Position numbers and translations under genes: made by a program. 22,120 nucleotides of DNA. It comes from a virus. Of the stretch, positions 1-22,120 are shown piece after piece. Under the pieces are notes generated by a model that saw only the letters and a list, made by a program, of their open reading frames with translations, searched no databases and had not been told where the DNA came from. The DNA is taken from the IMG/VR virus record IMGVR_UViG_3300014819_000077, positions 1 to 22,120 of that record, one strand, 5' to 3'. How positions within the stretch are numbered: position 1 is the first letter of the stretch; each line of letters opens with the position of its first letter.

Positions 1-342
1 AAGGGTAGAATTATTCCGAAAGTAAAGTATGATGATACTCGTGGTGGTCGCAACGCTGCTGTAAATACTCTCAATGAAAACACGCTGGAAGTGCGAGTGT
101 TTAAGGGTTCACTTATACCCGAGCGCGTACTGTCGGCTATTGAGTTGGCGCACTCTGCTGTTGAATACACACGCGACTTAAATGTTATGGAGTCGCAGAT
201 AAAAACAAGTGAGGGAAAGATTAAGTCAGGCGCATTGTCTTGGCTTGCTTTCTGCTCATATGTCTACAAGAACAATGAGAAATATCCCAACCTATTCGCT
301 ACAATGGTTAAGTCCTTTGATAACGATAGCCCAACCGAGTAA
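1..342 (+). CDS. Amidoligase-like protein, C-terminal part (5' end outside window)
   Basis: The reading frame is open from base 1, so only the last 113 residues are visible. They include AAVNTLNENTLEVRVFKGSL, followed by a helical segment (ERVLSAIELAHSAVEYTRDL). An AVN...T.E.R.FKGSL signature is typical, from memory, of the C-terminal part of phage amidoligases (glutamine-synthetase-fold COOH-NH2 ligases), which form amide bonds on peptides using ATP. The catalytic N-terminal part is outside the window, so activity cannot be judged. The next gene is a class II glutamine amidotransferase, a recurrent neighbour of amidoligases in phages, which supports the call. The first in-frame start visible (GTG at 91) is probably internal. 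It could also be an unrelated conserved phage protein. Confidence 0.55.
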   Translation, partial: KGRIIPKVKYDDTRGGRNAAVNTLNENTLEVRVFKGSLIPERVLSAIELAHSAVEYTRDLNVMESQIKTSEGKIKSGALSWLAFCSYVYKNNEKYPNLFATMVKSFDNDSPTE

Positions 343-343
343 G

Positions 344-360
344 TGTACGATAATCGTACA
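344..360. repeat. 17-bp palindrome, copy 1
   Basis: TGTACGATAATCGTACA has perfect 8-bp arms around a single central A. It fills the gap between the stop of the amidoligase-like gene and the ribosome binding site (GAAAGGAAA) of the glutamine amidotransferase gene. It is the first of five near-identical copies, all confined to this plus-strand operon. It could be an operator for a dimeric regulator or an RNA hairpin beside the ribosome binding site. Confidence 0.9.
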
Positions 361-374
361 GAAAGGAAACGACA

Positions 375-1217
375 ATGTGTATGCTCTGCGTAGTTCCACC
401 CAACACTACTCCGTCAAGGGATAAGTTGGAGAACTCAGCACTTAATAATCCGCACGGCTTTGGCTATGCGATAGCAGTTCGCTCGGAAAAGCGTATCCAC
501 TCCTTCCGCACTATGAACGCAGATGAGTGTATCAGCAAGTTCCTTGAGGACCGCGCAAAGTACCCTGAAGGGTACGCTATATGGCACGCTAGGTTCGCAA
601 CTCACGGCTCTAACACGCTGGAAAATTGCCACCCATTTATGGTTGGTAAAGATGAGCGTTCTTACCTTGCTCACAATGGTATCTTGTCCGTTATTGAGGA
701 TAACAAAGACGATATGAGTGATACTCGTATCTTTGCTCAGGACTTGTTGCCTTTTATTGGTGGTGTTAGGTCATTAGATAATAATCAAGTATGGAATATG
801 CTTGAGGACTTTACCACAGGTTCTAAAATTGCTATTCTTACTGTTAATCCTAGTGCCAAGCACGAACTCTATCTACTCCACGAGGAGAAGGGTATGTTAG
901 ATGAGTCAGGTGTGTGGTGGTCTAACGACACCTGTTATCTGACTTCGTGGCAAAGCGCTTACAATAACACTCTTGCTAAACCTTATTCTAATCCTTATCA
1001 AACTACATTTGATGAGGAAGAGACTTTCTTGGAGTGTACTGTCTGCGAGGCTGTGTTTGAGTATTGGGAGGCTATGAAAACAGGCACTGACTCTTGGTGT
1101 AATGTGTGTGGCTCTTGCTTTGAGTGTAAATCGTACAAGTCTGCTTGTATGTGCTATGTACCTAGCAAGTCGTACGATTATCGTACAAAGGAAGGAGTAC
1201 CATCGTGGGGGTGGTGA
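375..1217 (+). CDS. Class II glutamine amidotransferase with C-terminal Cys-rich domain
   Basis: A protein of 280 residues. It starts Met-Cys, giving the N-terminal Cys2 nucleophile of Ntn-type glutaminases after Met removal, which is why ATG 375 is chosen over ATG 381. Other family residues are visible: HARFATHG (71-78), the oxyanion Asn-Gly (101-102) and Asp117. Such domains release ammonia from glutamine and pass it to a partner synthetase. After about residue 215 there is an added cysteine-rich tail (C221, C224, C242, C245, C248, C251, C258, C260) that looks metal-binding and is not part of the core glutaminase fold. The ribosome binding site GAAAGGAAA follows palindrome copy 1. The partner is probably the upstream amidoligase-like protein, giving amide-bond or amidation chemistry on a peptide or cell-wall substrate. 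Palindrome copy 2 is encoded in its last residues. Confidence 0.85.
   Translation: MCMLCVVPPNTTPSRDKLENSALNNPHGFGYAIAVRSEKRIHSFRTMNADECISKFLEDRAKYPEGYAIWHARFATHGSNTLENCHPFMVGKDERSYLAHNGILSVIEDNKDDMSDTRIFAQDLLPFIGGVRSLDNNQVWNMLEDFTTGSKIAILTVNPSAKHELYLLHEEKGMLDESGVWWSNDTCYLTSWQSAYNNTLAKPYSNPYQTTFDEEETFLECTVCEAVFEYWEAMKTGTDSWCNVCGSCFECKSYKSACMCYVPSKSYDYRTKEGVPSWGW
1171..1187. repeat. 17-bp palindrome, copy 2 (inside coding sequence)
   Basis: CGTACGATTATCGTACA differs from the consensus only at the first base and has a central T. It lies inside the 3' end of the glutamine amidotransferase gene, where it encodes S-Y-D-Y-R-T (residues 266-271), and just upstream of the ribosome binding site (GGAAGGAG) of the next gene. 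Confidence 0.85.
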
Positions 1218-2565: not shown

Positions 2566-2706
2566 CTAAGCCCTTACCGCTTCGGCGGTAGGGGCTTTTT
2601 TAATGCCTTCACACTCACACCCTTTACAGTATTGGTGTAGTTCTCTAGCCAATAGTTCTTGACCTAGTTCGCGCTTGTGCGTTTCCCACTCGCACGAGGC
2701 GCACAT
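2566..2706 (-). CDS. Small Cys-rich zinc-binding protein (46 aa)
   Basis: ATG 2706 overlaps the previous minus-strand stop as TGATG. The product begins MCASCEW and later has YCKGCECEG, giving C2, C5, C27, C30 and C32, consistent with one zinc-binding site. Its last third is encoded by the plus-strand terminator stem (2568-2597), and its stop (2566-2568) touches that stem. Support comes from the coupled start and the cysteine pattern. It closes the replication operon. Function is unknown. Confidence 0.65.
   Translation of the reverse strand: MCASCEWETHKRELGQELLARELHQYCKGCECEGIKKAPTAEAVRA
2568..2601 (+). terminator. Strong intrinsic terminator of the plus-strand operon
   Basis: A 13-bp stem (2568-2580 with 2585-2597, one G-T wobble) closes on a TTCG tetraloop and is followed by a run of six T (2596-2601). 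It terminates plus-strand transcripts. On the minus strand there is no T-run after the stem, and the stem is coding sequence of the small zinc-finger gene at 2566-2706. Confidence 0.92.
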
Positions 2707-2981
2707 CACGAAAAGTTTGTGTTGGACTCAGGATAGACATTGCCGTTTTCTTGGATAGACTTTGCCGTATCGTCATCTTCTTTAAATAATTCAACAATAC
2801 CTTCGTAGAAGGTGTCGATTAACTCAGCCATAATATATGTTTTGACTGCAAGGTTATGGACCGCCTTGGCTAGGTCATCTAGTACTTTAATAAACTCTGC
2901 ATCTTGTTTTTCAGTCCAACTCTGGTCCTTCAACTTGTTCTCCAAGGTCTCCAGCATCTCTTTCAATGGAGTCTGTTCCAT
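2706..2981 (-). CDS. Coiled-coil-like protein of unknown function (91 aa)
   Basis: The frame is open from 3026, but ATG 2981 directly follows AAGGAGG and is the likely start (MEQTPLKEMLETLENKL). The protein is acidic and mostly helical, with heptad-like spacing over the first 70 residues. It overlaps the 3' end of the sigma-like gene by 71 bases in another frame, which is long for this genome. No family is recognised. It may act with the sigma-like protein given the tight coupling, but this is inference. Confidence 0.72.
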   Translation of the reverse strand: MEQTPLKEMLETLENKLKDQSWTEKQDAEFIKVLDDLAKAVHNLAVKTYIMAELIDTFYEGIVELFKEDDDTAKSIQENGNVYPESNTNFS

Positions 2982-3597
2982 CTTCGTCCTCCTTATAGTC
3001 ACGTTCTTTGCGTGGTCTGCTACCACCTAATATATTTAATAAACTGTTTATAGCGCGATTAACGCGCATACGCGCAGCATCTTCGGATATCTCTAACTCC
3101 AGAGCAAGTGTAGAGTTATCAGCACCGTCTCCGAACCTATGGTAGATGACAATGTATTGTTCTTCTGATATCTTATCTAAAGCCTTTTCAATGTCCGCCA
3201 CCATAGCGAACCAGTTGTTTCCCTCAGAGGCAACCTTTTTGTTGGCTATAAAACCAATGTCGTTCAGCGCTGGAGCAGTTGAATCTCCGCGCAGTACGGC
3301 AGGGAGCAATAACTCTAGAACATTCTTATCATAGTAATAGTTATCTTCTACTCTATAACCTGCAATTTTAGCCTTTTCTCTCTGGCAATAATCTTTAGCA
3401 GCATTACGCAAAGAACGAGCAATTAACTTTACGGATTGTTTATCATCTAATTTTTCCCAAGCCTTAACTTTGTTAGGATGCTCCAAAAACCATACCCATA
3501 ATTCTTGACGGATATCATCAACATCCAACATACGAAACTTACGAGCAAACTCATAACCTAAATGCGCTACAAGATTCTCGTATTTTTCTATTACCAC
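2911..3597 (-). CDS. RNA polymerase sigma-factor-like protein
   Basis: A protein of 228 residues. The first third (GYEFARKFRMLDVDDIRQEL, then WVWFLEH) resembles sigma region 2, and residues about 135-190 (ISEEQYIVIYHRFGDGADNS, LALELEISEDAARMRVNRAI) resemble the region 4 helix-turn-helix of ECF/sigma-70 proteins. The C-terminal 30 residues are highly charged and acidic. GTG 3597 overlaps the upstream stop by 7 bases, with AAGGAGAAG upstream. A phage sigma-like protein could redirect host RNA polymerase to phage promoters. The long linker between the two parts is unusual, so it could instead be a DNA-binding regulator with a sigma-derived fold. Confidence 0.68.
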   Translation of the reverse strand: MVIEKYENLVAHLGYEFARKFRMLDVDDIRQELWVWFLEHPNKVKAWEKLDDKQSVKLIARSLRNAAKDYCQREKAKIAGYRVEDNYYYDKNVLELLLPAVLRGDSTAPALNDIGFIANKKVASEGNNWFAMVADIEKALDKISEEQYIVIYHRFGDGADNSTLALELEISEDAARMRVNRAINSLLNILGGSRPRKERDYKEDEDGTDSIERDAGDLGEQVEGPELD

Positions 3598-4358
3598 TCG
3601 TACACTTCTCCTTCTACTGTGAAGGAACGACCAATGATAGGAACATTTACAGGAACTACGTTACTACGACGAATATACAAAATAGTAAATCCTTGTTGCC
3701 AATTAGCAGAACCAGTGCTTAAGTAATCTGCTTTGTTCAAGTCCATCAAGTGTCCTACTTCAACTCCAAAGAGTCTTGAACTAATCCGTCCGTTGTAACC
3801 GACGTGATAGTGCTGGATACCTTGCCTATGGGTGTGTCCACATATGACAGATAATCCGATACGTCTTGCAAGGTTGAGCGCAGTTCCTCCCGCAGTTTGT
3901 AGAAGACTCCCTTCATCTCCGTGGGCAAGAGCCCATCCTGGGGCAAACTGCCAGATTTTACTGTGATACGTAATATCAAGTTCGCGGTATCTGAGCAACT
4001 CCTCATATTCCAAAGCGCGGAGCCCAGCAAGTGCAGGGGCGTATTTGTCGATGTAATTTCCGATTCTGTCACCGTGATTACTCCTCATAACGTGAAATGG
4101 TTTATCTCCTAAAGCATCTTTAAAACGTTCCATAATATCAGAAGTTTTATCAAGACCTGATTGTAAAGTCTTAGCATACTCTGCTGCTCTACCTTTATTC
4201 CATCGAGATGGTTCAGGACTATCTGCCTCATCGCCTACACAGTAGAGTTCGTTGGGCTCAAAGTTATAGATAAAATCAGTTAATGCGGTAATTGCTCTTG
4301 CATCGTGGCTAGGTGCTTGAATATCTGAAATAACTACAACTCTTTTGAGTTTGCTCAC
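3591..4358 (-). CDS. Calcineurin-like metallophosphoesterase
   Basis: A protein of 255 residues with the ordered motifs of the family: SDIQAPSHD (11-19), GDEAD (42-46), SNHGDR (93-98), AHGDEG (145-150) and CGHTH (173-177). Two metal ions are expected at these Asp, Asn and His residues. Motif I has Gln14 where most members have His (D-x-H), though a His follows at 18. The family hydrolyses phosphomono- or diesters; nucleotide or DNA-end processing is the likely role in a replication module. The start overlaps the previous gene as ATGA. Confidence 0.87.
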   Translation of the reverse strand: MSKLKRVVVISDIQAPSHDARAITALTDFIYNFEPNELYCVGDEADSPEPSRWNKGRAAEYAKTLQSGLDKTSDIMERFKDALGDKPFHVMRSNHGDRIGNYIDKYAPALAGLRALEYEELLRYRELDITYHSKIWQFAPGWALAHGDEGSLLQTAGGTALNLARRIGLSVICGHTHRQGIQHYHVGYNGRISSRLFGVEVGHLMDLNKADYLSTGSANWQQGFTILYIRRSNVVPVNVPIIGRSFTVEGEVYEW

Positions 4359-4663
4359 TTTTTCTTCTTTCGTTTAGGCGCAACCTTTTTCTTAGCACGG
4401 CGCTTGTTCTCCATAGCAATATTTTTGCTTTTGGATACTACGCGGAGATTAGATTTACGGTCATCACCAGCACGACCTTTGTTGTTCTTGTGGTCTACTT
4501 CTTTATTACGCGGAAGAGACTTTCCAGTATCGTCTTCGTAATCAACACGGGCTTTGTTAGAAGAAGTAGTAACAGTTGTACCGTCTTTTTTCTTACGTTT
4601 GAAAACATAAATAGGTCTACCTCCGTTTTGTTTGCTTCCTTTGTAAGGTCCAAATCTTTTCAT
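4355..4663 (-). CDS. HNH endonuclease
   Basis: A basic protein of 102 residues. The beta-beta-alpha metal motif is visible as EVDHKNNKGRAGDD (D57, H58), followed by KSNLRVVSKSKNIAMENK with the expected Asn residues. ATG 4663 is chosen because it overlaps the previous stop as ATGA; ATG 4672 is three residues longer but only 3 bases from AGAGG. The tail after residue 88 is nearly all Lys and Arg, which should bind DNA non-specifically. It could be a packaging-associated or free-standing homing-type nuclease; its place in the replication module does not decide. Confidence 0.83.
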   Translation of the reverse strand: MKRFGPYKGSKQNGGRPIYVFKRKKKDGTTVTTSSNKARVDYEDDTGKSLPRNKEVDHKNNKGRAGDDRKSNLRVVSKSKNIAMENKRRAKKKVAPKRKKKK

Positions 4664-4971
4664 TTGTCCCATTTTCCTCTCAATACGAGCAATCCAATGA
4701 TTGCATAATTTGCCATATCTTTAAACGAATCTTCAAGAGATTCGTGTTGTGGATTTTTTCTAGAATCCACAAGATTATTTATACGGGCTAATTTATCGTG
4801 CATCCTTACACGAAGCCCATTGACTGGACCACCTGGACTATCTGAGATATTCTTTGGTCCGTAATCTTTATGTTTAGAAAGAAGTAAAGTTTCTAGTTCA
4901 GCAAAAACATCATAGACATCTAACTCAAACTTAGAAGGATGTTCTTCTAAAAAGTCATTCTTTTTTGTCAA
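4660..4971 (-). CDS. DUF1599-type (nucleotide-modification-associated, MazG-like) protein
   Basis: A protein of 103 residues from TTG 4971, which stands 6 bases after GGAGG; a GTG at 4989 is less well placed. The pattern LLLSKHKDYGPKNI, then GLRVRMHDKLARINNL, ESLEDSFKDMANYAIIG is that of the DUF1599/Nmad1 family as I remember it, an all-helical fold related to dNTP pyrophosphatases. Phage members are thought to act on nucleotide pools or modified nucleotides. The EDSFKD segment could supply metal-binding acids. Confidence 0.72.
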   Translation of the reverse strand: MTKKNDFLEEHPSKFELDVYDVFAELETLLLSKHKDYGPKNISDSPGGPVNGLRVRMHDKLARINNLVDSRKNPQHESLEDSFKDMANYAIIGLLVLRGKWDK

Positions 4972-5299
4972 GTTCTTCCTCCAATCCACTTATTAAATCT
5001 TCTACACTAGATTGAATTGTCACTTCCTGTAAAAACTCTTTGAGAGTATCTTCGGATGAGTTTACCATAAGTAAAGCCGTGCTTCGTATAAGTTCTATAG
5101 CATCTCTAATACCATTACCAAATATCAAAAGGTTATGTAAGTCTTCAAGGAATCCATAGAAGTTAAGAGTACAGTCTTCTCCTAATGGTAACATCCAAGA
5201 ATACTGAGTACCACAATGCTCGAGATACTTGAATATATCACGAGTTGAATAGTCGCACTCTTCGCATTGGTAAAAACCTTTGCTGTTAGGTAATAACAT
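4955..5299 (-). CDS. Protein with N-terminal zinc finger, unknown function (114 aa)
   Basis: ATG 5299 overlaps the previous stop as TAATG. Residues 10-29 (YQCEECDYSTRDIFKYLEHC) place C12, C15, H28 and C29 like a CCHC-type finger, with the DYSTRD...LEH spacing seen in C2H2 fingers. The rest is helical and acidic, ending in EELDKKE. It sits between the primase Toprim gene and the DUF1599 gene, so a role in replication is possible but not shown. Confidence 0.68.
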   Translation of the reverse strand: MLLPNSKGFYQCEECDYSTRDIFKYLEHCGTQYSWMLPLGEDCTLNFYGFLEDLHNLLIFGNGIRDAIELIRSTALLMVNSSEDTLKEFLQEVTIQSSVEDLISGLEEELDKKE

Positions 5300-5922
5300 T
5301 ACTGAGCACCTGCTATCTTTTCTTTGAAGTAGTCTGCTCCGTAAGTCCGATAGAGCGAATTAACATCTTCGCCTTCTGGCGCTTGTATGACGACAACGTT
5401 GGACAATTCTCGAGAAAGGGACTTACCGAAATCATAGCCTGCATTGTCTCCGTCCGCGAAGAGGAAAACCTTATCGAAGTCAGCCAAGAGCCTATTGTAA
5501 TGTTTCTTCCAATTATTAACGCCAGGGACACCAACTGACGGAATGTTACAAACCAAGTCCAAACTAATGGTGTCGATTTCGCCCTCACATATACATATGT
5601 ATGACGATGCACGGAAAAGCGCTCCCACATTATACAGGTGTGTCGTAGCCCCAGCCATTCCCATATACTTGGGCTCTTCGTGTCCGAGACTCCTGAAACG
5701 CAAGTCAACAACACCAGACTTTGTGATGTAAGGGATGCAGAGCCTATTCGTATAGGCTTCATATCCTGTCAGCGGGTCTAAGACGACGCCCAAGCGTGCT
5801 TTGATTGCTGCCTCCATTGTTATGCCGCGTTCTGCGAGGTATTCCTCCGCTTCTGGCAGTGCGCTGTGGTAATACTTTGCCGCTTTTGTTAAAGATTCCC
5901 TCTGCGATGCTGATTGCTTCAC
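5299..5922 (-). CDS. DNA primase, Toprim catalytic subunit
   Basis: A protein of 207 residues. The Toprim fold is shown by ICEGEIDT (E113, E115) and LFADGDNAG (D157, D159), the acids that bind catalytic metal. The N-terminal part (LPEAEEYLAERGITMEAAIK, LCIPYI, VVDLRFRSLG) matches the RNA-polymerase-like region that precedes Toprim in DnaG-type primases. GTG 5922 is behind AAGGAAGGGG and overlaps the CHC2 zinc-finger gene by 164 bases in another frame. Together the two products would make one DnaG-like primase that lays RNA primers. Confidence 0.87.
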   Translation of the reverse strand: MKQSASQRESLTKAAKYYHSALPEAEEYLAERGITMEAAIKARLGVVLDPLTGYEAYTNRLCIPYITKSGVVDLRFRSLGHEEPKYMGMAGATTHLYNVGALFRASSYICICEGEIDTISLDLVCNIPSVGVPGVNNWKKHYNRLLADFDKVFLFADGDNAGYDFGKSLSRELSNVVVIQAPEGEDVNSLYRTYGADYFKEKIAGAQ

Positions 5923-6136
5923 GAAACTTGACCCCTTCCTTTTGCATAATTATAGCATAACCATCGCCCTTTGTTTGGCAAGCAAAGCAACAGAAAGCAT
6001 TCTCATTAAGATTAACTGTTGCAGAGTTATGTCTATCATCGTGGAACGGACACTTGATAGAAAACCACCCACGACGAGTTGGTACGGTTGCCCCATAATG
6101 CTCTAAAATCACTGATATATCAGGCTTTTCCATCAT
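5759..6136 (-). CDS. DNA primase, CHC2 zinc-finger subunit
   Basis: A protein of 125 residues with the CHC2 zinc finger (C29-P-F-H32 ... C50-F-A-C53) that recognises template DNA in DnaG-type primases. After about residue 82 the sequence becomes low-complexity and Arg-rich (RTARSGGIPRRTRHNN). This is the part read out of frame with the Toprim gene. ATG 6136 follows AAGGAAGG by 6 bases and overlaps the upstream gene by 17 bases. The normal single-chain primase is split here, as in some other actinophages. Confidence 0.85.
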   Translation of the reverse strand: MMEKPDISVILEHYGATVPTRRGWFSIKCPFHDDRHNSATVNLNENAFCCFACQTKGDGYAIIMQKEGVKFREAISIAEGIFNKSGKVLPQRTARSGGIPRRTRHNNGGSNQSTLGRRLRPADRI

Positions 6137-6467
6137 TCGTCGCCTTCCTAAGTAATTCTACCCATACTGCTACAGGCATTGTAGCATACCATTCAGCAGG
6201 GTCTCCCTTGCCTTTGCGTTTATGAATTACTGTCCCTGTCCAAGCCTTTGAGTTCTTTGTTTCAACTTCTAATTCTGATAACCAACCAGCAAGGTTTAAC
6301 TTAGCGTGGTTCTTAATTTCTATGCAGACACCGTTGATGCCTGAGATATCACCTTTATCCAGAGTGGCTCCCGCAAGCCTTCTTTCTGCATACGGGAACC
6401 ACTGTTGGAGATATTTAACTACATCTCTCTCTGCTTGAGAGCCCTTGATTTTGGATTTGCTAGACAT
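6120..6467 (-). CDS. PD-(D/E)XK nuclease, Holliday-junction-resolvase-like
   Basis: A protein of 115 residues. The nuclease core is visible: KGSQAERDVV with E13, LDKGDISGI with D40, and VCIEIKNH with E50-x-K52. This arrangement, with KGS near the N-terminus, is that of archaeal Hjc-like and phage junction resolvases. It would cut branched recombination or replication intermediates. TAATG coupling with the upstream transglycosylase gene. A VRR-NUC-type or other structure-specific nuclease is the alternative. Confidence 0.72.
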   Translation of the reverse strand: MSSKSKIKGSQAERDVVKYLQQWFPYAERRLAGATLDKGDISGINGVCIEIKNHAKLNLAGWLSELEVETKNSKAWTGTVIHKRKGKGDPAEWYATMPVAVWVELLRKATNDGKA

Positions 6468-6901
6468 TAGTACCAGCCGTTAGACTGCCAATGAGCCCAC
6501 GCAACGGTTGGAGTACCATAGCGATGGACGATATACTTGAGTCCTTTAGAAACCTGATATTCAATTGTTGAGTCTTGTGGTGTTCTCAATACTTGAGCGA
6601 TACCATAAGCACTCGAGTGAGGGTTCTTGGCTTTCCAGTTCCAAGCAGATTCCTTACCCCACAGTTTGACAAGTGCTTTCCATTCGTTCTTAGCATCTTT
6701 ACCAAACATCTTATTAAGTTTTTGTTTTGCGACTGACTGGGCTAACATTTTTGGGCTCGGTAAAACAGTTTCTGTGTTTCCCATTGAAACCATAATTGGT
6801 TTTAACGGATTCACTTTAATGAGCCACGCACCCACACCGTGGGGCAATGTTGCCGCAAATATTGCAATCGCGGATATTATTGATACTGTCGATAGTTTCA
6901 T
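6467..6901 (-). CDS. Secreted lytic-transglycosylase-like protein
   Basis: A protein of 144 residues with a typical Sec signal: KLS, then hydrophobic VSIISAIAIFAATL, and probable cleavage near GVGA-W. Residues 74-144 match the SLT-type domain of small actinobacterial secreted transglycosylases: WGKESAWN with catalytic Glu84, KNPHSSAYGIAQ, GLKYIVHRYGTP and HWQSNGWY. The ribosome binding site GAGGAG is 5 bases before the ATG. It would cut peptidoglycan from outside the membrane. Its place among replication genes, far from the lysis cassette at 9655-10565, is odd and suggests a role in early infection or host-wall remodelling. Confidence 0.8.
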   Translation of the reverse strand: MKLSTVSIISAIAIFAATLPHGVGAWLIKVNPLKPIMVSMGNTETVLPSPKMLAQSVAKQKLNKMFGKDAKNEWKALVKLWGKESAWNWKAKNPHSSAYGIAQVLRTPQDSTIEYQVSKGLKYIVHRYGTPTVAWAHWQSNGWY

Positions 6902-6903
6902 CT

Positions 6904-7107
6904 TTACTCCTCAATGGGTGCGGTAGCCTGCGTTCCACAGTCAGCGCACTCCATATCTAGAAAATACATCCCTATAGTGTTGTCTTCTGCGAAGACTACT
7001 TTGAGATTCCATACGAAACTCCCGCAGATGCACACCGTAGTTGGATTACCACGGATATCCATCGCCTTGTCATAACTCGGTTTGAGTTGTGTAATAGGTT
7101 TAGACAT
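6904..7107 (-). CDS. Small zinc-ribbon protein (67 aa)
   Basis: ATG 7107 overlaps the helicase stop as TGATG; a TTG one codon upstream is less likely. The product has CICG (C26, C28) and ECADCG about 26 residues later, a plausible zinc ribbon with an irregular first pair. No family is recognised. It is co-translated with the helicase. Confidence 0.68.
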   Translation of the reverse strand: MSKPITQLKPSYDKAMDIRGNPTTVCICGSFVWNLKVVFAEDNTIGMYFLDMECADCGTQATAPIEE

Positions 7108-7895
7108 CAAGACCTATCAGGTATATCAGACACATCCATAATCTCGGGATTAAACTGCAACCAATGAGCCGTATCCCCCGAAGGGTCTGCTTTGCCATAT
7201 CGGTTCTTTACGGGCGCAACGGCTATATATCCTGGCGCGTTGGAACCTACCGTGCAAATCAGAGCAGGTAATTGCGCTACCATCCCCTGAAGCGCGCTCC
7301 GTGGTTGGCACGGATTACCTGAATACGACTCTTTGGTATGATGCAGTACAAGCACAGCAGAATTGGTATCCCTTGCGAGATACTTCAATTCCTTTATTGT
7401 GGAGCGCATACCAGCAAACTCTTCTCCGCCATCATTAGAAATATCCATAAGGTTATCTACAACGATGAGAGTAGGGGCGCAACCCCACAACTCTTCAAAA
7501 GCAAGAACTTCTTGGTCAACATCAGCGAGCGAAGGCGCTGCTTCAAATGACCAGAAGATATGCCCTGAAGAATCATTTATTATTTTTCTTGATTCGGTAA
7601 CATCCTTAACGAGCATTTCTTCTGCATCGCTTTGGGTCTTACCAGTTATCATTGACAGTAAACGCATAGCCATTGTATGTGCGTTTGTGTCGGCACTTAC
7701 ATACAGTGTTGGTACTTTGGCGCGCAACGCCATAGCCAGTGCTAATGTAGATTTACCAGCACCAGGAGTACCAGCAATCATCGACACTTCAGCACGTCTA
7801 AGTATAATCTTATGCGCTTCGAAAGTTCGGAACACGGATGGAAGTGGTTCGCCACCTATGTCCGCGCTGCCAACCGCACGGGCAAGGGTTCTCAT
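7107..7895 (-). CDS. RecA-fold DNA helicase (DnaB/RepA-like ATPase)
   Basis: A protein of 262 residues with Walker A GTPGAGKST (42-50), Walker B LIVVDN (Asp147) and a LHHTKES segment (184-190) that matches the sensor motif of DnaB/RepA-type ring helicases. It lacks the N-terminal DnaB domain, so it resembles the plasmid RepA/short phage helicases. It would unwind DNA at the fork with the split primase downstream. ATG 7895 has no clear ribosome binding site, so translation may depend on coupling to the upstream gene 3 bases away. A RadA-like recombinase is a less likely alternative. Confidence 0.82.
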   Translation of the reverse strand: MRTLARAVGSADIGGEPLPSVFRTFEAHKIILRRAEVSMIAGTPGAGKSTLALAMALRAKVPTLYVSADTNAHTMAMRLLSMITGKTQSDAEEMLVKDVTESRKIINDSSGHIFWSFEAAPSLADVDQEVLAFEELWGCAPTLIVVDNLMDISNDGGEEFAGMRSTIKELKYLARDTNSAVLVLHHTKESYSGNPCQPRSALQGMVAQLPALICTVGSNAPGYIAVAPVKNRYGKADPSGDTAHWLQFNPEIMDVSDIPDRS

Positions 7896-7898
7896 TGG

Positions 7899-8312
7899 TT
7901 AGAATGTACTCCATTCAGGTTCATTGCGCTTTAGGAAAATTGGTTCGCACTGGTCAGGAGTTCCTTTTGGAGTTGAGCACATATATGCTTTCCAAGGACC
8001 CTTAGCGCTAGCGCCTTGTCTCTTAGTCATAGGACCGTGCTTACAAGCACGACCAGTTGGTGCGGTGCTAGGCGTTGTTGTCTGTGGGACAACTGTTGCT
8101 GGAATAACAGCAGTTACGTTATTAACTGCTTGTTGTATCGTAACAGGTGCTCCTTCAATAGAGGCAGCCATTGTGCTAATTGCTCCCTCGGCTCCATCAA
8201 CACCGAGTACTTCGACTAGATTACTCTTAAAATCGGCAAATGTATCTGCTCCGATTACAAAGATTCTCCCGTCATTTAGTTTACTGCTGACTTGGAAGTT
8301 TGCCCCAGCCAT
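7899..8312 (-). CDS. Protein with C-terminal zinc-binding segment, unknown function (137 aa)
   Basis: The frame is open from 8360, but ATG 8312 follows AAAGGAGAAACA and is the likely start (MAGANFQVSSKLNDGRIFVI). It has a small alpha/beta N-terminal domain, then a Thr/Pro-rich linker (PATVVPQTTTPSTAPTG), then a conserved-looking segment CKHGPM, KGPWKAYMCS, GTPDQC that resembles a zinc ribbon. Its place between helicase and nuclease suggests a DNA-binding role, perhaps like a single-strand-binding or loader protein, but this is inference. Confidence 0.75.
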   Translation of the reverse strand: MAGANFQVSSKLNDGRIFVIGADTFADFKSNLVEVLGVDGAEGAISTMAASIEGAPVTIQQAVNNVTAVIPATVVPQTTTPSTAPTGRACKHGPMTKRQGASAKGPWKAYMCSTPKGTPDQCEPIFLKRNEPEWSTF

Positions 8313-8410
8313 TGTTTCTCCTTTGTTATCTGTTCGTTTTTGAACCCTGTATTGTCCCAAGCATCAACCATCTCATCCATAGTTCTGCGGATAGGGAATA
8401 TATCATCCAC
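8276..8410 (-). CDS. Possible small acidic helical protein (44 aa)
   Basis: A GTG start at 8410 overlaps the nuclease stop by 8 bases, and the frame ends 37 bases inside the next gene. The product (DDIFPIRRTMDEMVDAWDNT and onward) is helical and acidic. It fills the only gap between two genes in an otherwise gapless operon. The ribosome binding site is weak, and a 26-residue frame starting as ATGA overlap at 8406 competes with it. Confidence 0.42.
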   Translation of the reverse strand: MDDIFPIRRTMDEMVDAWDNTGFKNEQITKEKQWLGQTSKSAVN

Positions 8411-9179
8411 TATACTCACTAGACTTTGCTCCGTTCATCCACTTGCAATATGATAGCACACCGCATCTTCCGCAGTTGCTAAAGTTAGGCAGAAATATGT
8501 CAGCCTTACGTGCCTTATCAAAGCCTAAGAATATGCTCTCAACCTTATCAGGTTGGAGATGTTCAAGATTCCAAGTAGTAATATTACCAGTGCGTGCATC
8601 CCAGAAGCCAGCCTTATCGACTGATACACCCTGCTTGTCTAGAGCCCAAGCGTAAACTGCTAGTTGCAGGGGATGCCTCTGAGATGACGCACCAGTTTTG
8701 ATATCGACGAGTACCCTATTCCCGTCGTAATCAACCAATACACGGTCAATGGCAAGTTTGACCGTAGTATCGCCCAATGCAATCTCATATTGTTTCTCAA
8801 TAAAATCTTCGTATACACTCCAACCTTTGTCAGGGTGCATAAAGTCTGCCCAGCGGTCTAGCATCCACAAACCTTCGCCATACCACCAAGAGATATCTTC
8901 ACGACCACGAAACTCCCAAGAGTTCATATCACCGTAAAGTGCTTCGTCTTCTTTAATCTGATTGAACCAGACATCGTTCCATAGTTCATCATTGTTATTG
9001 GTTTTACCAAGGTCTAACTTATCGAAACGTTCGGTAGCCTTATGGACAGCAGACCCACCCGTAAACCATACTGCGTGTTTCTCGGGTACGCCTTGTAGTT
9101 TTGTTAGGTTATATTTCCAGCCACATTCTTGCCAGGTACTGAAGGAAGAATATGATATATGTTTAGGTAATTCGCTCAT
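8403..9179 (-). CDS. Cas4/RecB-like PD-(D/E)XK exonuclease with Fe-S cysteines
   Basis: A protein of 258 residues. The nuclease motifs are His46 (GGSAVHKATE), Asp145 (LAIDRVLVD), D159-I-K161 and Q172-x3-Y176. One Cys near the N-terminus (C19, WQECGWKY) and three at the C-terminus (C236, C239, C245) match the arrangement that binds a [4Fe-4S] cluster in Cas4 and AddB-like nucleases. It would resect DNA ends for recombination or degrade host DNA. No cas1/cas2 is near, so a CRISPR role is unlikely. ATG 9179 overlaps the upstream small gene as ATGA. Confidence 0.85.
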   Translation of the reverse strand: MSELPKHISYSSFSTWQECGWKYNLTKLQGVPEKHAVWFTGGSAVHKATERFDKLDLGKTNNNDELWNDVWFNQIKEDEALYGDMNSWEFRGREDISWWYGEGLWMLDRWADFMHPDKGWSVYEDFIEKQYEIALGDTTVKLAIDRVLVDYDGNRVLVDIKTGASSQRHPLQLAVYAWALDKQGVSVDKAGFWDARTGNITTWNLEHLQPDKVESIFLGFDKARKADIFLPNFSNCGRCGVLSYCKWMNGAKSSEYSG

Positions 9180-9310
9180 TCCTCAAAGATATCACACTCA
9201 CAGAACTCTTCGCAGGTTAGGTCGCACTCGTCCCAGCCCAGCCAGTCCCCTTGAAGTGAATCGGATTCGCCGAAAATACTTTGAATAAAACGTTGCCACA
9301 ATGAACGCAT
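9176..9310 (-). CDS. Overlapping small acidic Cys-rich protein (44 aa)
   Basis: ATG 9310 follows CAGGA by 6 bases and lies inside the FmdB-like gene in a different frame; the two share 94 bases. The stop overlaps the nuclease start as ATGA. The product has an amphipathic basic start (MRSLWQRFIQSIFG) and an acidic Cys-rich end (DECDLTCEEFCECDIFEE, C at 29, 33, 37, 39). No family is recognised. The ribosome binding site and ATGA coupling are the main support. Confidence 0.62.
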   Translation of the reverse strand: MRSLWQRFIQSIFGESDSLQGDWLGWDECDLTCEEFCECDIFEE

Positions 9311-9393
9311 TTAATTTCCTGACTATTATCAAACGGAAGGGTTAATTCTTGGACGGTATCACAAGTCCTACATTCGTAATCGTACGTTGGCAA
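9217..9393 (-). CDS. FmdB-family zinc-ribbon protein (58 aa), TTG start
   Basis: TTG 9393 follows GGAGAG by 3 bases. The product begins (M)PTYDYECRTCD, continues IKCVHCGN and ends FSANPIHFKGTGWAG. This is the classic FmdB/CxxC_CxxC_SSSS zinc-ribbon signature, with zinc at C8, C11, C29 and C32. The family is often annotated as regulatory, though its biochemical role is poorly known. It is the first gene of the replication module, right after the 9394-9654 gap, so an early regulatory role would fit. Confidence 0.85.
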   Translation of the reverse strand: MPTYDYECRTCDTVQELTLPFDNSQEIKCVHCGNVLFKVFSANPIHFKGTGWAGTSAT

Positions 9394-9433
9394 TTTCTCT
9401 CCTATATGCCTGAACCCCAGATTCTAAGAAATG

Positions 9434-9448
9434 CCCCCCCTACCCCCC
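9434..9448 (-). other. G6-TA-G7 tract on the minus strand
   Basis: The plus strand reads seven C, TA, six C. On the minus strand, which would be the 5' leader of the replication transcript, this gives two long G-runs, with a further GGGG about 15 bases downstream (9415-9418). Long G-runs can form quadruplexes in DNA or RNA. Confidence 0.5.
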
Positions 9449-9522
9449 ATAAAAATTATGGTGAGTCAGGGAGGCTAGGTTAGGCTATGCCGTCACCCCG
9501 TCATCTGAAGTTTCTGCCCCAC

Positions 9523-9538
9523 GGTTTCCCGTGAAACA
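9523..9538. promoter_or_regulatory. parS-like palindrome
   Basis: GGTTTCCCGTGAAACA differs from the bacterial parS core GTTTCACGTGAAAC at one of 14 core bases (9524-9537). parS is the centromere bound by ParB during chromosome partition. No ParA or ParB gene is in the window, so a host ParB would be the reader. The same bases also form a short hairpin, CACGG-TTTC-CCGTG (9520-9533), which is the alternative explanation. Confidence 0.4.
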
Positions 9539-9579
9539 ATAGTAACATATAAATATTTTTTCCGCATATAAAGAAATAT

Positions 9580-9616
9580 GACCCCCATCCTATGGGATTA
9601 CCACAGGTAGGGGGTC
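9580..9616 (-). terminator. Large hairpin, probable terminator of the late operon
   Basis: On the minus strand GACCCCC pairs with GGGGGTC (7 bp). After a 2x2 internal loop, CCTGTGG pairs with CCATAGG (7 bp, one G-T), closing on a 5-base loop. On the plus strand the inner stem has an A-C mismatch, so the structure fits a minus-strand RNA better. It is followed by ATATTTCTTTAT rather than a clean T-run, so termination strength is uncertain. It lies 39 bases past the stop of the last lysis gene. Confidence 0.6.
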
Positions 9617-9654
9617 AAAGTGTCTAAAAACGGCCTTAGAAGGCGTTTAAAGGG

Positions 9655-9840
9655 CTATTTAGCGCCTCTGCCAAACTCAGGGGCAGATGGGTCTAGCCAT
9701 TTAAGGACAGGTCCGAGGAAGCCAGCAAGGGCTGCTGTTGCCAGCACCTTTAGATTAGTTTCTCCAGCAAGGTATAGTGCGACTGCAGCGGCTGCTGAAG
9801 CACGGAACCAAGTAAGAGATACTTGTTTGAATTGTTCCAT
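9655..9840 (-). CDS. Holin-like small membrane protein (61 aa)
   Basis: ATG 9840 overlaps the endolysin stop as TAATG. The product has an amphipathic N-terminus (MEQFKQVSLTWFRASAAAAV) and one or two hydrophobic segments (about 12-26 and 31-47), then the short tail LKWLDPSAPEFGRGAK. This layout and the W-x-RA-x-AAA start resemble small phage holins. Its position directly after the endolysin supports a role in pore formation and lysis timing. Confidence 0.65.
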   Translation of the reverse strand: MEQFKQVSLTWFRASAAAAVALYLAGETNLKVLATAALAGFLGPVLKWLDPSAPEFGRGAK

Positions 9841-10361
9841 TAGATTGCCTTTCGTTTAGGTTTATGGATAGGACAGCACGTGCATACTATCCGTGGTTCA
9901 GATACTAGCACTTTTTTCTTAGGTTGGGGGGTAAGATTAGCCAAAACCTGATTTAGGACTTTAGGCTGGTTTACCCACCAGAACCAAGGGCTAGTATCAT
10001 TAGATTTATCAGCATTGATAGAAATATGAAGATGTTTAGTGTGAGGATTACTACCAGTATAAACGCGATTGCCAGACTTAGCCTTATCGCGGGACCAGAT
10101 TTTTTTATTAAAGATAAGGTAAGAGACTCGTTCGTCCTCTTTAAGTTTTTCAAAAATAACAGCACAATCAACCCCGTTCTTAGGGTCGTGGGTCAAATCG
10201 ACTGCTAGCCCAGTATTGTGGTCCGAATTCGGGCTGGCTTTCTGATGCGCTAACGAAGGCAACAACCCGTCTGACAGTTTCTTGCGCTTCGGAAATAACG
10301 CTGTCGCTTGACGGAGCACAGCAATAGCAGCAGGTGACGCTACTTTGGCTACAGGCTTCAT
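9840..10361 (-). CDS. Endolysin, M15-type (LD/DD-carboxypeptidase-like) peptidase
   Basis: A protein of 173 residues. The zinc-peptidase motifs are SDHNTGLAVDL (H48, D55) and HTKHLHISI (with H110 and H112), typical of VanY/peptidase M15 endolysins that cut peptide cross-links in the cell wall. There is no signal peptide, so it would need the neighbouring holin. The ribosome binding site GAGGAG is 4 bases before ATG 10361. A Lys/Pro-rich linker leads to an unusual C-terminus, IVCTCCPIHKPKRK, with three Cys and one His, which may bind metal or the wall. Confidence 0.82.
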   Translation of the reverse strand: MKPVAKVASPAAIAVLRQATALFPKRKKLSDGLLPSLAHQKASPNSDHNTGLAVDLTHDPKNGVDCAVIFEKLKEDERVSYLIFNKKIWSRDKAKSGNRVYTGSNPHTKHLHISINADKSNDTSPWFWWVNQPKVLNQVLANLTPQPKKKVLVSEPRIVCTCCPIHKPKRKAI

Positions 10362-10565
10362 TCATCTCCTCAATGCTTCCTTGATTAAGTCTGTTAATAG
10401 TTCTACTTTATTCTCCAAAGAATCAACCTTATCCTTAAGACTAGAACCACCATTAGGTTTTAATTCATATAGGTAATGTTTAACTAACCAGCGTACAGCG
10501 CCAGCAAATCCAGCAACTAAAGTAAATACGGCTACGGCTAGTCCAGCCCATTCAGTAGGTGTCAT
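10362..10565 (-). CDS. Membrane protein with C-terminal coiled coil, possible second holin or antiholin (67 aa)
   Basis: The N-terminal segment (TEWAGLAVAVFTLVAGFAGA) is one transmembrane helix. The C-terminal part (LKDKVDSLENKVELLTDLIK) has clear heptads. Such one-helix/coiled-coil proteins beside phage endolysins are often annotated as holin or DUF2746-like. The stop abuts the endolysin start, and its own start overlaps the upstream gene as TAATG. Confidence 0.65.
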   Translation of the reverse strand: MTPTEWAGLAVAVFTLVAGFAGAVRWLVKHYLYELKPNGGSSLKDKVDSLENKVELLTDLIKEALRR

Positions 10566-12502
10566 TACACAGTCCTTACGGTCATAGTGAGCATTCCTCC
10601 ATAACCAGTAAATCCTCTATCTGGTGGAGTCATACGAGTGAAAGTAATTTGTTCTATAGCAACCTGACGAGATTCGCCAGTAGTTAAGTCTTGCCAAGTA
10701 ACAATATCGCCATTTTCTTCAATACTTTCTAGAGTATTGATTCTATCTAAGGCTCTGCCTTCGTAGCCGACCATAACATTGTACTTGTCTGTCTCCACGT
10801 CAAAACAATAGACGGGAAATCTAATCACTCGCTGTCTTGGTGTAGCGATAGTAGCCTTTGCCTGATAGCCCTTGAAGATAGGACCTTTAGTATTATCAGT
10901 GCCATCTCTATATAGAATAAATTTATAGGCTATGTATTCTTGCGCCCCTGGTGGCTGGCTAGTAGTTACTTCTACTGGCGGAACTGATGAATCATAACTA
11001 ACCACATCATACTCAGTGCCTTCTGCATCTACAGTTTCTAAAGTCATAGAGCCAAAGTCAAACTCACCGCGCCCTATCAGGCGTTTAAAGTTCTTAGGTT
11101 CTAATGTGTTGTATCTGATAAAGCCTGTCTTTATGTAACCGCTAGTTACTTTTTCTGCATTTCTTTCTATCCAGATACCGTCACCTGTTACAGCAAAAGC
11201 CACCCTGTCGCTAGAGCCCAGGAAGGCTACGCTTGCAGCAGTAGATGTAGTATTAGTAGCCACTAAATCTGTGGCATATGGAAAGAGTAATGTTCCTAAT
11301 TCTACAGATAAATCAATACGATACAGTCCTGCCTCAGTACCTACCAGCCCTGATACATAAGCAAATCTATCCCTAAATGCTACGCCTTTGAAGTCACCTT
11401 CAATGATTATAGGGCCATACTTTATACTGCCATCATCTTGGACTGCTGCGACTCGAACACCTTTGCTAGTGCAAATAACCATATAAGTGCCAAGGTATAC
11501 ATCTATAGCATTTACTATTTCAGTTACAGGAAACTGGGCTATCTCGGTAGGTGTAGTCAAAGTAGGAAAACCTAAAGCAGTAGTTCCTGTAGTTAAACCA
11601 ATTTTAAATATAGCGCTATTGGTGCGATTCTTGCCAGAAAAATAAATAGCATTAGGTCCTTCACAGATACTAGTCCATACCCAAGCGCTAGTAGGATGGG
11701 TAAAGGTAGCAGTAGGCAGCGCTGTAGTAGCGTGACTACCAGACGGGGCTATATTAGGGTTAAGTTCATAGATACTATTTGCTACACCAGCCATCAAACG
11801 CTGTTTAACAAATCTAACAACAACACTGCTAGTACCAGTAGCATAAGTAGTGTCATCTGATGTAGTGCCACCAATATTACCTACGTGAAGAGCGGTAGTG
11901 CAGGAAGCAAAGTATCGAGTTCCGTCTGTTGTTACACTTACAATAGGTTGATTAGTATGCGCTGCTACTAAAGTATATGTGCTGGTAGTAGGTGTATCTC
12001 CCGACATAGTAATTTTCTTAAGGTTAACACCGTCAGCAAATACAATACAGTCATTAGTGCCATCATTAGCGCTTATAACTACTGGAGTACTGCTAGTCGA
12101 ATAGGTTTCTACTGTGTCATTTAGGAGAGTTACTTGACCCTCTATCCAGACATCTACCCCTTTGCTATCGGCAAAGCGAGATGTGCCTTCGCCAGGAATA
12201 AGTGCTGGGTCATAAAAAGTAATGCCAGCCCCCTCGTGAAAGGAAGACTGGCTTCTAATCCACCAACCAGTGAGCGACTGCTCACCAGGTTCAGTTTGAT
12301 TATCAAATTGTTCTTTCCTGTAAGGAGCAGTCTGACGAATGTAAGGGTTGGAATCATTAATAGCATAGATAAATGGCATACCACCAATAGCAACATCATA
12401 GGCTATATCAGTATTCTGCCAGATAGCATCAGTAGCAACTACACCAACATCAACAGCAATCGCTCTACTAGAGCGACCTTCTGTAATATCACGACCAGCC
12501 AC
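10565..12502 (-). CDS. Large virion structural protein, probably beta-rich tail protein (645 aa)
   Basis: GTG 12502 follows AAAAGGAGAATAA. The protein is rich in Thr, Val, Gly and aromatic residues with many short strands; repeated pieces such as VVISANDGTNDCIVFADG, VGNIGGTTSD, SGLVGTEAGLYRIDL and FLGSSDRVAFAVTGDGIWIE suggest a beta-propeller-like middle. The last 150 residues look like a separate beta domain. It lies between the lysis genes and glycan-related genes in the tail region. Specific function (tail tip, spike or adaptor) cannot be told. Confidence 0.6.
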   Translation of the reverse strand: MAGRDITEGRSSRAIAVDVGVVATDAIWQNTDIAYDVAIGGMPFIYAINDSNPYIRQTAPYRKEQFDNQTEPGEQSLTGWWIRSQSSFHEGAGITFYDPALIPGEGTSRFADSKGVDVWIEGQVTLLNDTVETYSTSSTPVVISANDGTNDCIVFADGVNLKKITMSGDTPTTSTYTLVAAHTNQPIVSVTTDGTRYFASCTTALHVGNIGGTTSDDTTYATGTSSVVVRFVKQRLMAGVANSIYELNPNIAPSGSHATTALPTATFTHPTSAWVWTSICEGPNAIYFSGKNRTNSAIFKIGLTTGTTALGFPTLTTPTEIAQFPVTEIVNAIDVYLGTYMVICTSKGVRVAAVQDDGSIKYGPIIIEGDFKGVAFRDRFAYVSGLVGTEAGLYRIDLSVELGTLLFPYATDLVATNTTSTAASVAFLGSSDRVAFAVTGDGIWIERNAEKVTSGYIKTGFIRYNTLEPKNFKRLIGRGEFDFGSMTLETVDAEGTEYDVVSYDSSVPPVEVTTSQPPGAQEYIAYKFILYRDGTDNTKGPIFKGYQAKATIATPRQRVIRFPVYCFDVETDKYNVMVGYEGRALDRINTLESIEENGDIVTWQDLTTGESRQVAIEQITFTRMTPPDRGFTGYGGMLTMTVRTV

Positions 12503-12513
12503 TTATTCTCCTT

Positions 12514-13095
12514 TTATTTTTTTACTACCCATAACTGCCAGTTTTTACAAATTAAAAAAAGTTCGTCTTTATGTCTTTCAAGAAATGAATTAACGCCAGG
12601 CATAGGGCGATTAGCATCGCCTGTCCCATCGTTCCACTCATAGTCATCAAAGGCTAATACGCCACCTGACTTAAGACATAGCCAAGATAATTCAGCATCA
12701 AGCAGAGTGCCTATGGCAGTATGGTCAGCATCTATGTAAATAAAATCATAGTAATCAAGCGGGGCTTGACGCAAGAAATCAATAGTCTTGCCCTTGAATT
12801 TAGTTACATTAGTGTAAGTCTTTAACTTATCATCATATGTTAATTCAACATCGTTAAAGTCCATACTGTGGTGGGCTTCTTCATTAGAGCCCAGCCAAGT
12901 ATCTACATCAGTTAGATGACAACCTTCATTAGTAAGTACATTGTTAAGTAACCATACGCTAGCATCACCAGTAAAGGCTCCTAGTTGCAGGAACTTTAAG
13001 TCTGTTTTATCAGATAGTCTAAGTAGTAAATCTGCAAAGTTCTTCTGGGCTGTTGAAGCAAACCAGTTAGGATACTCTACTTTACTCTGCTGCAT
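12514..13095 (-). CDS. Class I SAM-dependent methyltransferase
   Basis: A protein of 193 residues of the Methyltransf_24 type. The SAM-binding glycine motif is FLQLGAFTGDASVWLL (35-50), an acidic end of strand 2 lies near LTDVDTW, YDFIYIDADH (116-125) is the motif IV region, and GGVLAFDDYEW follows. Members methylate small molecules or sugars. The gene overlaps the glycosyltransferase by 14 bases, so the two likely act together, for example in modifying a glycan on the virion or in sugar methylation. Confidence 0.8.
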   Translation of the reverse strand: MQQSKVEYPNWFASTAQKNFADLLLRLSDKTDLKFLQLGAFTGDASVWLLNNVLTNEGCHLTDVDTWLGSNEEAHHSMDFNDVELTYDDKLKTYTNVTKFKGKTIDFLRQAPLDYYDFIYIDADHTAIGTLLDAELSWLCLKSGGVLAFDDYEWNDGTGDANRPMPGVNSFLERHKDELFLICKNWQLWVVKK

Positions 13096-13813
13096 TTTCT
13101 TGTTCTTTAAGTTTTGTCTTTAAATGTTCATTAGCCCAATACAATGCATAGTAGTCATAGTCAACGCTAAAGCGTTTCATATGCTTTACCAGTGCTCCAG
13201 TATGGGCGTGCAGTGGTATGCCAGCCTTCTTCATACGGCGGAAAAAGATAATATCTTCGCCGATAAACTTATTGTCTTCAGCATCACCGCGTTCCATAAA
13301 CATAGACTGACCAGGATAGGCAGCCCTCATCTTAGGAACTATAGACTTATGCATAAGCACAAATCCAAAGCCTGCTGAGTCACACCTGATTACCTGATTA
13401 TCTGGTAATGGGTGGTGATAGCGAACTTCAAACTCACTTACATCATCAAACAGAACTGGAAACGGGCGCATAAGGCTGCCCTCATTTTCCTTAGAAATAA
13501 AGTAGACACCGCTAACTACTGGACGGTTTACCTTATCGGCTGTCTGCCAGAGTTTATGGATAGCCTCAAGGCTTAGAACTATGTCTGAATCTACCCATAG
13601 TATCCAGTCTGTCTTAAGTTTATCTGCCCAGTAATCAAAGAGTATCTGGCGTTGTCTGCCTATCTGATTACCCTGCACACGTATGCTGGTAGTAAAGCGC
13701 ATACCGTTGTTAGGACCAGCAATTACTGCTGTCATTAACCCTTCGGTAAACTTGCCATCAGTTGTGCCGTTGTCACACCAACCGATAGCCACTGTCTCTT
13801 GCTTTTGTATCAT
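13082..13813 (-). CDS. GT-A-type glycosyltransferase
   Basis: A protein of 243 residues. DWILWVDSDIVL has the D-x-D (D75, D77) that binds the nucleotide sugar through a metal, and GEDIIFFRRMKKAG followed by HAHTGALVKH is typical of the acceptor and catalytic end of family-2-like enzymes. No membrane segment is seen. ATG 13813 follows AGGGGACA. It would transfer a sugar to a phage protein or to a host surface glycan. Confidence 0.82.
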   Translation of the reverse strand: MIQKQETVAIGWCDNGTTDGKFTEGLMTAVIAGPNNGMRFTTSIRVQGNQIGRQRQILFDYWADKLKTDWILWVDSDIVLSLEAIHKLWQTADKVNRPVVSGVYFISKENEGSLMRPFPVLFDDVSEFEVRYHHPLPDNQVIRCDSAGFGFVLMHKSIVPKMRAAYPGQSMFMERGDAEDNKFIGEDIIFFRRMKKAGIPLHAHTGALVKHMKRFSVDYDYYALYWANEHLKTKLKEQENAAE

Positions 13814-13828
13814 TGTCCCCTACTTTCT

Positions 13829-14167
13829 TTAGTTTAGTTCATCCCAAGATAGTGTTTCTTCATTCCAACGCCATAAACCTTCTGTAGGCATTGGAGTAGG
13901 CGGTTGCCAGTTGTGGTTAGCATCTAGGCTCCACGATGGGAATGGCTGTGGCGCAATAAACACATCTGCTACTGGGTCATAGGTGTAACCTATGCCAGCA
14001 TATTGTTTGCGGATTTTATGATTATATGAAGTGCGGACACAAGTTTGATTTCTGAAATTTCCATACCAAACTTCAGGACTTAAACCTTCAATAAGTTCAG
14101 TCTCATCAATACCTACAATAACTTCAGTGACAATATTGTTGCTGTCTAAAAATGCGTAATGTGCCAT
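13829..14167 (-). CDS. Conserved phage tail-associated protein, unknown function (112 aa)
   Basis: ATG 14167 overlaps the glycine-rich gene as TAATG. The sequence MAHYAFLDSNNIVTEVIVGI, then RTSYNHKIRKQYAGIGYTYD, FIAPQPFPSWSLD and NWQPPTPMP recalls a family I have seen in cyanophage and other aquatic phage tail-fibre regions. Conserved Trp, Tyr and Pro suggest a compact beta fold. It may be a fibre chaperone or a minor fibre component. Confidence 0.65.
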   Translation of the reverse strand: MAHYAFLDSNNIVTEVIVGIDETELIEGLSPEVWYGNFRNQTCVRTSYNHKIRKQYAGIGYTYDPVADVFIAPQPFPSWSLDANHNWQPPTPMPTEGLWRWNEETLSWDELN

Positions 14168-15443: not shown

Positions 15444-15470
15444 TAGTTACTGTACCTTTCTGTTTGTTTG

Positions 15471-15716: not shown

Positions 15717-15717
15717 A

Positions 15718-18566: not shown

Positions 18567-18574
18567 TTATGTTC

Positions 18575-20996: not shown

Positions 20997-20999
20997 TAA

Positions 21000-21528: not shown

Positions 21529-21529
21529 A

Positions 21530-22110: not shown

Positions 22111-22120
22111 AAGTCCTCCT

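Follow-up and report, generated by a model that had tools for sequence, protein, structure and literature searches.

The left end of a 22,120-base viral sequence encodes the C-terminal part of a GS-like amidoligase and a class-II (Ntn) glutamine amidotransferase, or glutaminase (GATase), and we give about an even chance to the reading that the two proteins are subunits of a single enzyme that forms amides using ATP and glutamine, and that phages and conjugative elements carry as an accessory module. The analysis shows both folds, conserved residues of catalytic type and a near-obligate pairing; it also shows that the genes duplicated jointly, are mobile and are dispensable. Ammonia transfer, chemistry and target are inferred.

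The analysed stretch (hereafter the window) is the entire IMG/VR record, and its left end cuts the first gene. Positions 1 to 342 (+ strand), an open frame running off that end, encode the C-terminal 113 aa of the amidoligase, as assigned from PHROG 22302 and from alignments with Mycobacterium phage Marvin gp105 and with locus L001 (L-numbers denote loci or contigs of relatives). The fragment resembles Marvin gp105 (tblastn, E 5e-8 to 1e-7), matches PHROG 22302, the Marvin gp105 family (E 5e-9), and is 57% identical to the C-terminus of the L001 amidoligase in alignments of 28 to 30 members. On its own it matches no Pfam family, PF12224 included, and as a single-sequence query it recovered no viral relative. 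The glutaminase gene follows at 375 to 1217 (+ strand; 280 aa), identified from PF13230, a structural model and invariant residues. The preliminary description, which had placed the end of an amidoligase-like protein ahead of a glutaminase, was thus correct on the order of both genes. The sequence left of base 1 that it proposed to consult does not exist in the record, and a 32-base exact scan found no identical extension. We consequently studied the 5′ part of the amidoligase, which the window lacks, in relatives. In related phage contigs a long open reading frame lies directly upstream of the glutaminase gene, with a C-terminus resembling the window fragment. No tRNA genes were found in the window.

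Domain analysis of the full-length upstream proteins (389–611 aa) revealed a zinc-finger-like Cys array followed by a GS-like domain. The motif order is a Cys-rich N-terminal half, then FGxELEVE, KxDGSLxxGFEIVTHP, CGLHVHVSR and NTxNxxTLEVRVFKGSL. Of 28 family members searched with the PF12224 (Amidoligase_2) profile, 22 gave matches at E<0.01, the strongest at 1.2e-11, and L017, L068, L076 and Rhizobium phage RHph_N3_13 (RHph) exceeded the family cut-off; L001, the nearest full-length relative, gave no PF12224 match. Structural work on the ligase used an AlphaFold2 model of L001 (mean pLDDT 79.7), whose residues 273–532 superpose on YbdK with Z 13.3 (225 residues, 3.8 A), on GCL with Z 12.1 and on GS with Z about 12. 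Foldseek matches to this model were YbdK, glutamate-cysteine ligase, glutamine synthetase and GmaS (best E 7e-5), with PafA and Dop (E about 0.005–0.1) ranked under GS, YbdK and GmaS. The preliminary description had allowed that the complete upstream protein might lack a GS-like ligase core; in the relatives the GS fold and the ligase-type residues are present, and the profile comparison it suggested succeeds with 22 of 28 family members, the window fragment alone giving no match.

Fourteen ligase positions are invariant in 91 of 91 pairs (E283, E285, K311, D313, S315, E321, H361, H363, R411, R438, N443, T449, E451 and R453), and in the window itself only the C-terminal subset is visible. By analogy with GS, E283, E285, E321, H361, H363, R411, R438, E451 and R453 may serve as acidic metal and ATP ligands and basic phosphate ligands. 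Together, sequence and model predict ATP-dependent carboxylate-amine ligase activity. Ahead of the GS core, every full-length ligase (79/79) carries at least two CxxC motifs, with a median of 20 Cys. The array gives weak profile matches to LIM proteins; we rejected its assignment as a LIM domain or cytochrome, the PDB matches being weak and driven by Cys spacing, and retain only the term zinc-finger-like.

The window GATase matches PF13230 above the family cut-off (E 4.7e-7), and all 28 aligned GATase members match PF13230 and PF13522. Its catalytic domain spans residues 2–190. C2, H71, R73, N101, G102 and D116 are invariant in 91 of 91 homologues, and in all 91 the catalytic C2 directly follows the initiator Met. 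The key residues initially listed therefore stand for C2, R73, N101 and G102, and the Asp is corrected from D117 to the conserved D116. The C-terminal domain with eight Cys, noted early on, is likewise present: C221, C224, C242, C245, C248, C251, C258 and C260, seven of them nearly invariant, form a Cys-rich, zinc-ribbon-like segment (C221–C260, positions 1035 to 1154, + strand), recognised by CxxC counts and by Cys columns at least 90% conserved. This segment, with at least two CxxC motifs, occurs in 96 of 102 GATase homologues; the six without it are three truncated copies (L072–L074), MEP402, L171 and L172. The upstream 606-aa open reading frame of L171 was ruled out as an amidoligase by profile. 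Among the 102 homologues we found no stand-alone, ligase-free glutaminase bearing the Cys segment, of the kind that would have counted against the preliminary reading.

In the reading we favour, the glutaminase, an Ntn fold with Cys2 as nucleophile, would free ammonia from glutamine, and the GS-like amidoligase would bind Mg-ATP and convert a target carboxylate to an acyl phosphate. Ammonia or another amine would then attack the acyl phosphate to yield an amide. The zinc-finger array of the ligase and the usual zinc ribbon of the glutaminase may hold the complex together, grip a large target, or both. Coupling of the glutaminase activity to the synthetase is predicted from the gene pairing.

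The main rival, a real possibility but a clearly less probable one, is a cycle like that of EgtA and EgtC. Here the GS-like enzyme would join the gamma-carboxyl of glutamate to a target amine, and the Ntn protein, a hydrolase of the gamma-glutamyl amide and not an ammonia donor, would later remove the group or transfer the gamma-glutamyl moiety. EgtC is a stand-alone Ntn amidohydrolase that does not donate ammonia. In our model of the GATase (mean pLDDT 80.8) this class-II-fold amidohydrolase appears about as near as GlmS: the GlmS glutaminase gives Z 14.3 (175 residues, 3.8 A), EgtC 14.2 and PurF 13.2, a near-equality that argues against the ammonia-donor view. For the Bifidobacterium phage GATase the best match is the EgtC model (E 2.5e-7), and the top folds for the ligase include glutamate-cysteine ligase and YbdK. 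A further point against the ammonia view is that the ligase's fold neighbours include GmaS, GCL and PafA, which take other amines. Against the cycle, the window GATase scores best with GlmS-type glutaminase profiles, and R73/N101/G102/D116 is the ordinary glutaminase set; because both enzyme types bind the gamma-glutamyl group, sequence and fold fit either. The known EgtA–EgtC system similarly combines a GS/GCL-type ligase with a hydrolase of class-II GATase fold, but it belongs to a small-molecule pathway (ergothioneine) whose other enzymes are not seen here, and we know of no zinc fingers in it.

The two genes are tightly linked. Both open reading frames are adjacent in all 71 loci where both were called, with gaps of -34 to +46 nt, a large peak at 0 and frequent stop/start overlap. 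The glutaminase lies directly 3′ of the ligase in 78 of 78 untruncated amidoligase-seeded phage contigs listed, and the 79th ends there. Amidoligase-bearing viral contigs number at least 568 confirmed relatives. Pairing is near-obligate. In Bifidobacterium phages, an unannotated zinc-finger/GS-like open reading frame, recognised by eye from its motifs, lies two genes upstream of the GATase; the candidate amidoligase of phage BA720P3 is L080:2868-3767.

In a scan of 84,980 species genomes the family turned up in bacteria as well: in ten species of Nocardia, in Rugosimonospora and in two records of uncultured genomes. The Nocardia order is ligase-glutaminase-ligase-glutaminase, each amidoligase with its own glutaminase; N. 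vaccinii has three pairs, and L160 and L161 have fewer pairs within the DNA examined. Phylogenetic analysis placed the first-position copies in one clade in both gene trees (100/99 and 98/90). Because this clade recurs in both trees, the pair appears to have been duplicated as a unit with both members kept. Retention of both duplicated members speaks for joint function, although co-duplication, and the same tree, can arise from physical linkage alone.

DprA, SSB and TrwC relaxase genes lie near the N. higoensis copy, and because of these neighbours it appears to sit in a conjugative or integrative element; the N. cyriacigeorgica copy has similar neighbours, judged by N-terminal sequence. Across the Nocardia elements (L160–L170, L173–L178) the tandem pairs are followed by conserved uncharacterised genes (N1, N3 and N6) and by DUF4192, DprA, SSB and TrwC relaxase genes, possibly a cargo or establishment region. 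Three mycobacterial plasmids also carry the pair; on the M. paragordonae plasmid (L183) an unannotated GATase lies 3′ of 15843, on the fragment with the amidoligase. The pair was rejected as a host core gene: in an even sample of 198 genomes across the class, the query genome was the only one to have it.

Comparison with phage LanE43-AprE7, which from its name we take to be phage E7, revealed that its structural and replication genes are syntenic with those of the window, at up to 75% aa identity, and a profile search found the pair absent from it. Phage E7 was isolated on ‘Ca. Planktophila’ (PMC10202952). Because this close syntenic Planktophila phage lacks the pair, the pair is accessory and dispensable in the window's lineage. 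A freshwater actinobacterium of the Nanopelagicales is the probable host, judging from the WhiB gene of the window and from the synteny with E7. Two window genes noted on the side also have E7 counterparts. The product of 4660 to 4989 belongs to DUF1599 (‘nucleotide modification associated’; PF07659, E 1.1e-7) and recurs in 56 related loci as well as in E7; that of 16428 to 18566 is 712 aa long, includes a greatly extended low-complexity run of Ala, Ser and Thr (AATSATSAA repeats) and matches a 559-aa E7 protein.

Nucleic-acid amidation is a further alternative: the zinc-finger array would steer the ligase to DNA or tRNA, where a carboxylated base would become an amide, with defence evasion or a change in decoding as the outcome. 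In its favour, every full-length ligase bears a zinc-finger-like Cys array, the pair is shared by phages and by conjugative or plasmid elements where SSB, DprA and relaxase genes lie close by, and the DUF1599 gene is found in the same phages. We nevertheless consider this alternative improbable: no base-carboxylating or hypermodification enzyme was seen beside the pair, DUF1599 is also present in the Planktophila phage without the pair, and neither ligase nor glutaminase matched any PADLOC defence profile. On the PADLOC result we also rejected membership in known anti-phage defence systems.

The surroundings vary while the pair stays, as a comparison of subgroup A, subgroup B, Marvin and MEP402 makes clear. 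In subgroup A, WhiB and small genes lie downstream of the pair. The window encodes a WhiB-family protein at 1700 to 2044 (PF02467, E 1.9e-14), and in 51 of 79 loci one of the first four genes 3′ of the GATase encodes WhiB. In subgroup B, an SLT-like lytic gene lies upstream and nuclease and helicase genes downstream. In 9 of 9 subgroup B loci (L031, L035, L037, L038, L040, L041, L052, L070 and L075) the SLT-like gene, a homologue of window positions 6467 to 6901, precedes the ligase by 16–26 nt; outside subgroup B it is not adjacent to the pair.

The small Cys-rich and helical proteins that were initially proposed as possible substrates do exist in the window, at 1338 to 1716, but we rejected them as conserved substrates or partners, the neighbourhood counts placing them in only part of the family: F12 occurs in 40 of 79 loci and F39 in 7, and neither was found around the pair in Marvin, MEP402, subgroup B or the Nocardia elements. 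A last alternative is a PafA-like tag ligase: the amidoligase would attach an amino acid or a short peptide to a protein, the small downstream proteins would be its substrate, and the Ntn protein would take the tag off or activate it. In its favour, small open reading frames adjoin the pair, and the Foldseek list includes PafA and Dop. The counts above, the absence of any conserved small protein accompanying the pair across all contexts and the ranking of PafA and Dop under GS, YbdK and GmaS make it quite improbable, more so than nucleic-acid amidation.

For the amide-forming enzyme, a polymer or its precursor, be it a peptidoglycan precursor, a protein, tRNA or DNA, would be a likelier target than a free metabolite, because the zinc modules may assemble the complex, grip a large target, or both. 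A cytoplasmic cell-wall precursor is weakly favoured as the single most likely target. The sole hint to the target comes from subgroup B, where the SLT-like gene immediately precedes the ligase, an adjacency that counts as one event in one related subgroup.

A separate feature of this region is a series of dispersed palindromes. A 17-bp perfect palindrome, TGTACGATAATCGTACA, occupies 344 to 360, after the stop codon of the amidoligase and ahead of the ribosome-binding site of the glutaminase, and its position, about -31 from the glutaminase ATG, is conserved in relatives. Five 17-bp palindromes lie in the + strand early operon (344 to 360, 1171 to 1187, 1673 to 1689, 2166 to 2182 and 2549 to 2565; 0.11 expected), with zero copies in window positions 2566 to 22120. 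Among 76 related contigs, 31 (L001–L014, L017, L018, L020–L030, L036, L068, L072 and L074) carry 4–11 copies of 15–17 bp palindromes at conserved spots, before genes and inside open reading frames, with clade-specific arms (GTACGA, GTTCGG, GTTAGG, GTACGG, GCTCGG and GTAAGA), against at most 1–2 copies in mononucleotide shuffles; phage E7 has none. The pattern looks like a dispersed operator system, putatively a stoperator-like one in which the specificity of the repressor changes; RNA hairpins are another reading.

Among known systems, the closest counterpart is Marvin (cluster S) gp105–gp106, an adjacent zinc-finger/GS-like amidoligase and class-II GATase with a C-terminal zinc ribbon. The Marvin and window GATases share 33% identity over 96% of the GATase, but the Marvin ligase has a shorter N-terminal Cys array (453 aa versus about 520) and other surrounding genes. 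In its record gp105 is labelled ‘glutamine amidotransferase domain protein’, yet it is the amidoligase.

Cassettes of the phiEco32/LUZ24 type (e.g. UFV-P2 and RHph_N3_13) likewise place a GS-like amidoligase and a class-II GATase in the early region, but differ in their extra ATP-grasp and GGCT/AIG2 genes. In LUZ24-like phages the set comprises genes for an amidoligase, an HNH protein, a GATase, an ATP-grasp protein and AIG2 (PMC3890496). In RHph_N3_13, GGCT genes lie beside the amidoligase, ATP-grasp and GATase genes; its GATase lacks the C-terminal Cys ribbon and its amidoligase falls in other PHROGs. GGCT (PF06094), found in RHph_N3_13, is absent from 12 of 12 two-gene phages, a set that excludes the window and in which several records may be incomplete. 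The RHph ATP-grasp protein, itself under the Pfam cut-off, matched only RHph as a single-sequence query, a search that a divergent ATP-grasp could escape.

The OM43 phages MEP401 and MEP402 share the two-gene amidoligase–GATase arrangement and a Cys motif before the ligase core (PMC10580990), but the MEP402 GATase lacks the C-terminal Cys ribbon and has only 23% identity. That report of an amidoligase and a GATase in OM43 phages agrees with the early remark that comparative genomics had already described such phage pairs (PMC10580990). As cited there, a cell-wall change against superinfection was proposed for phiEco32 (Iyer 2009) and secondary metabolites for Marvin (Mageeney 2012). We read the window pair as a two-gene subtype, with a zinc-finger ligase, the usual GATase zinc ribbon and no GGCT in 12 of 12 phages, which earlier literature may have described.

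MurT–GatD and AsnB/LtsA are similar in concept, combining ligase and glutaminase for the amidation of cell-wall precursors. AsnB is a fused synthetase that acts in cell-wall amidation, MurT is a Mur-ligase relative, and GatD belongs to a different glutaminase class; to our knowledge, none of them is homologous to the GS-like ligase. MurT and GatD are reported to act as a ligase and a glutaminase that amidate peptidoglycan precursors (PMC3267633).

Amidoligase/glutaminase pairs have been predicted in phages for years without a known product. The two-gene zinc-finger subtype is common (at least 568 viral contigs) and accessory, and it also occurs on mycobacterial plasmids and on Nocardia elements with tandem pairs. 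Cultivable carriers exist, namely mycobacteriophage Marvin on M. smegmatis and the Bifidobacterium phages. A bolder, rather unlikely extension is that a mobile, zinc-finger-guided two-subunit amidating enzyme marks a macromolecule of the host or the invader (cell-wall precursor, tRNA, DNA or protein) while a phage or conjugative element becomes established. If true, such macromolecule marking would add a modification, and a means of evasion or exclusion, that has yet to be described.
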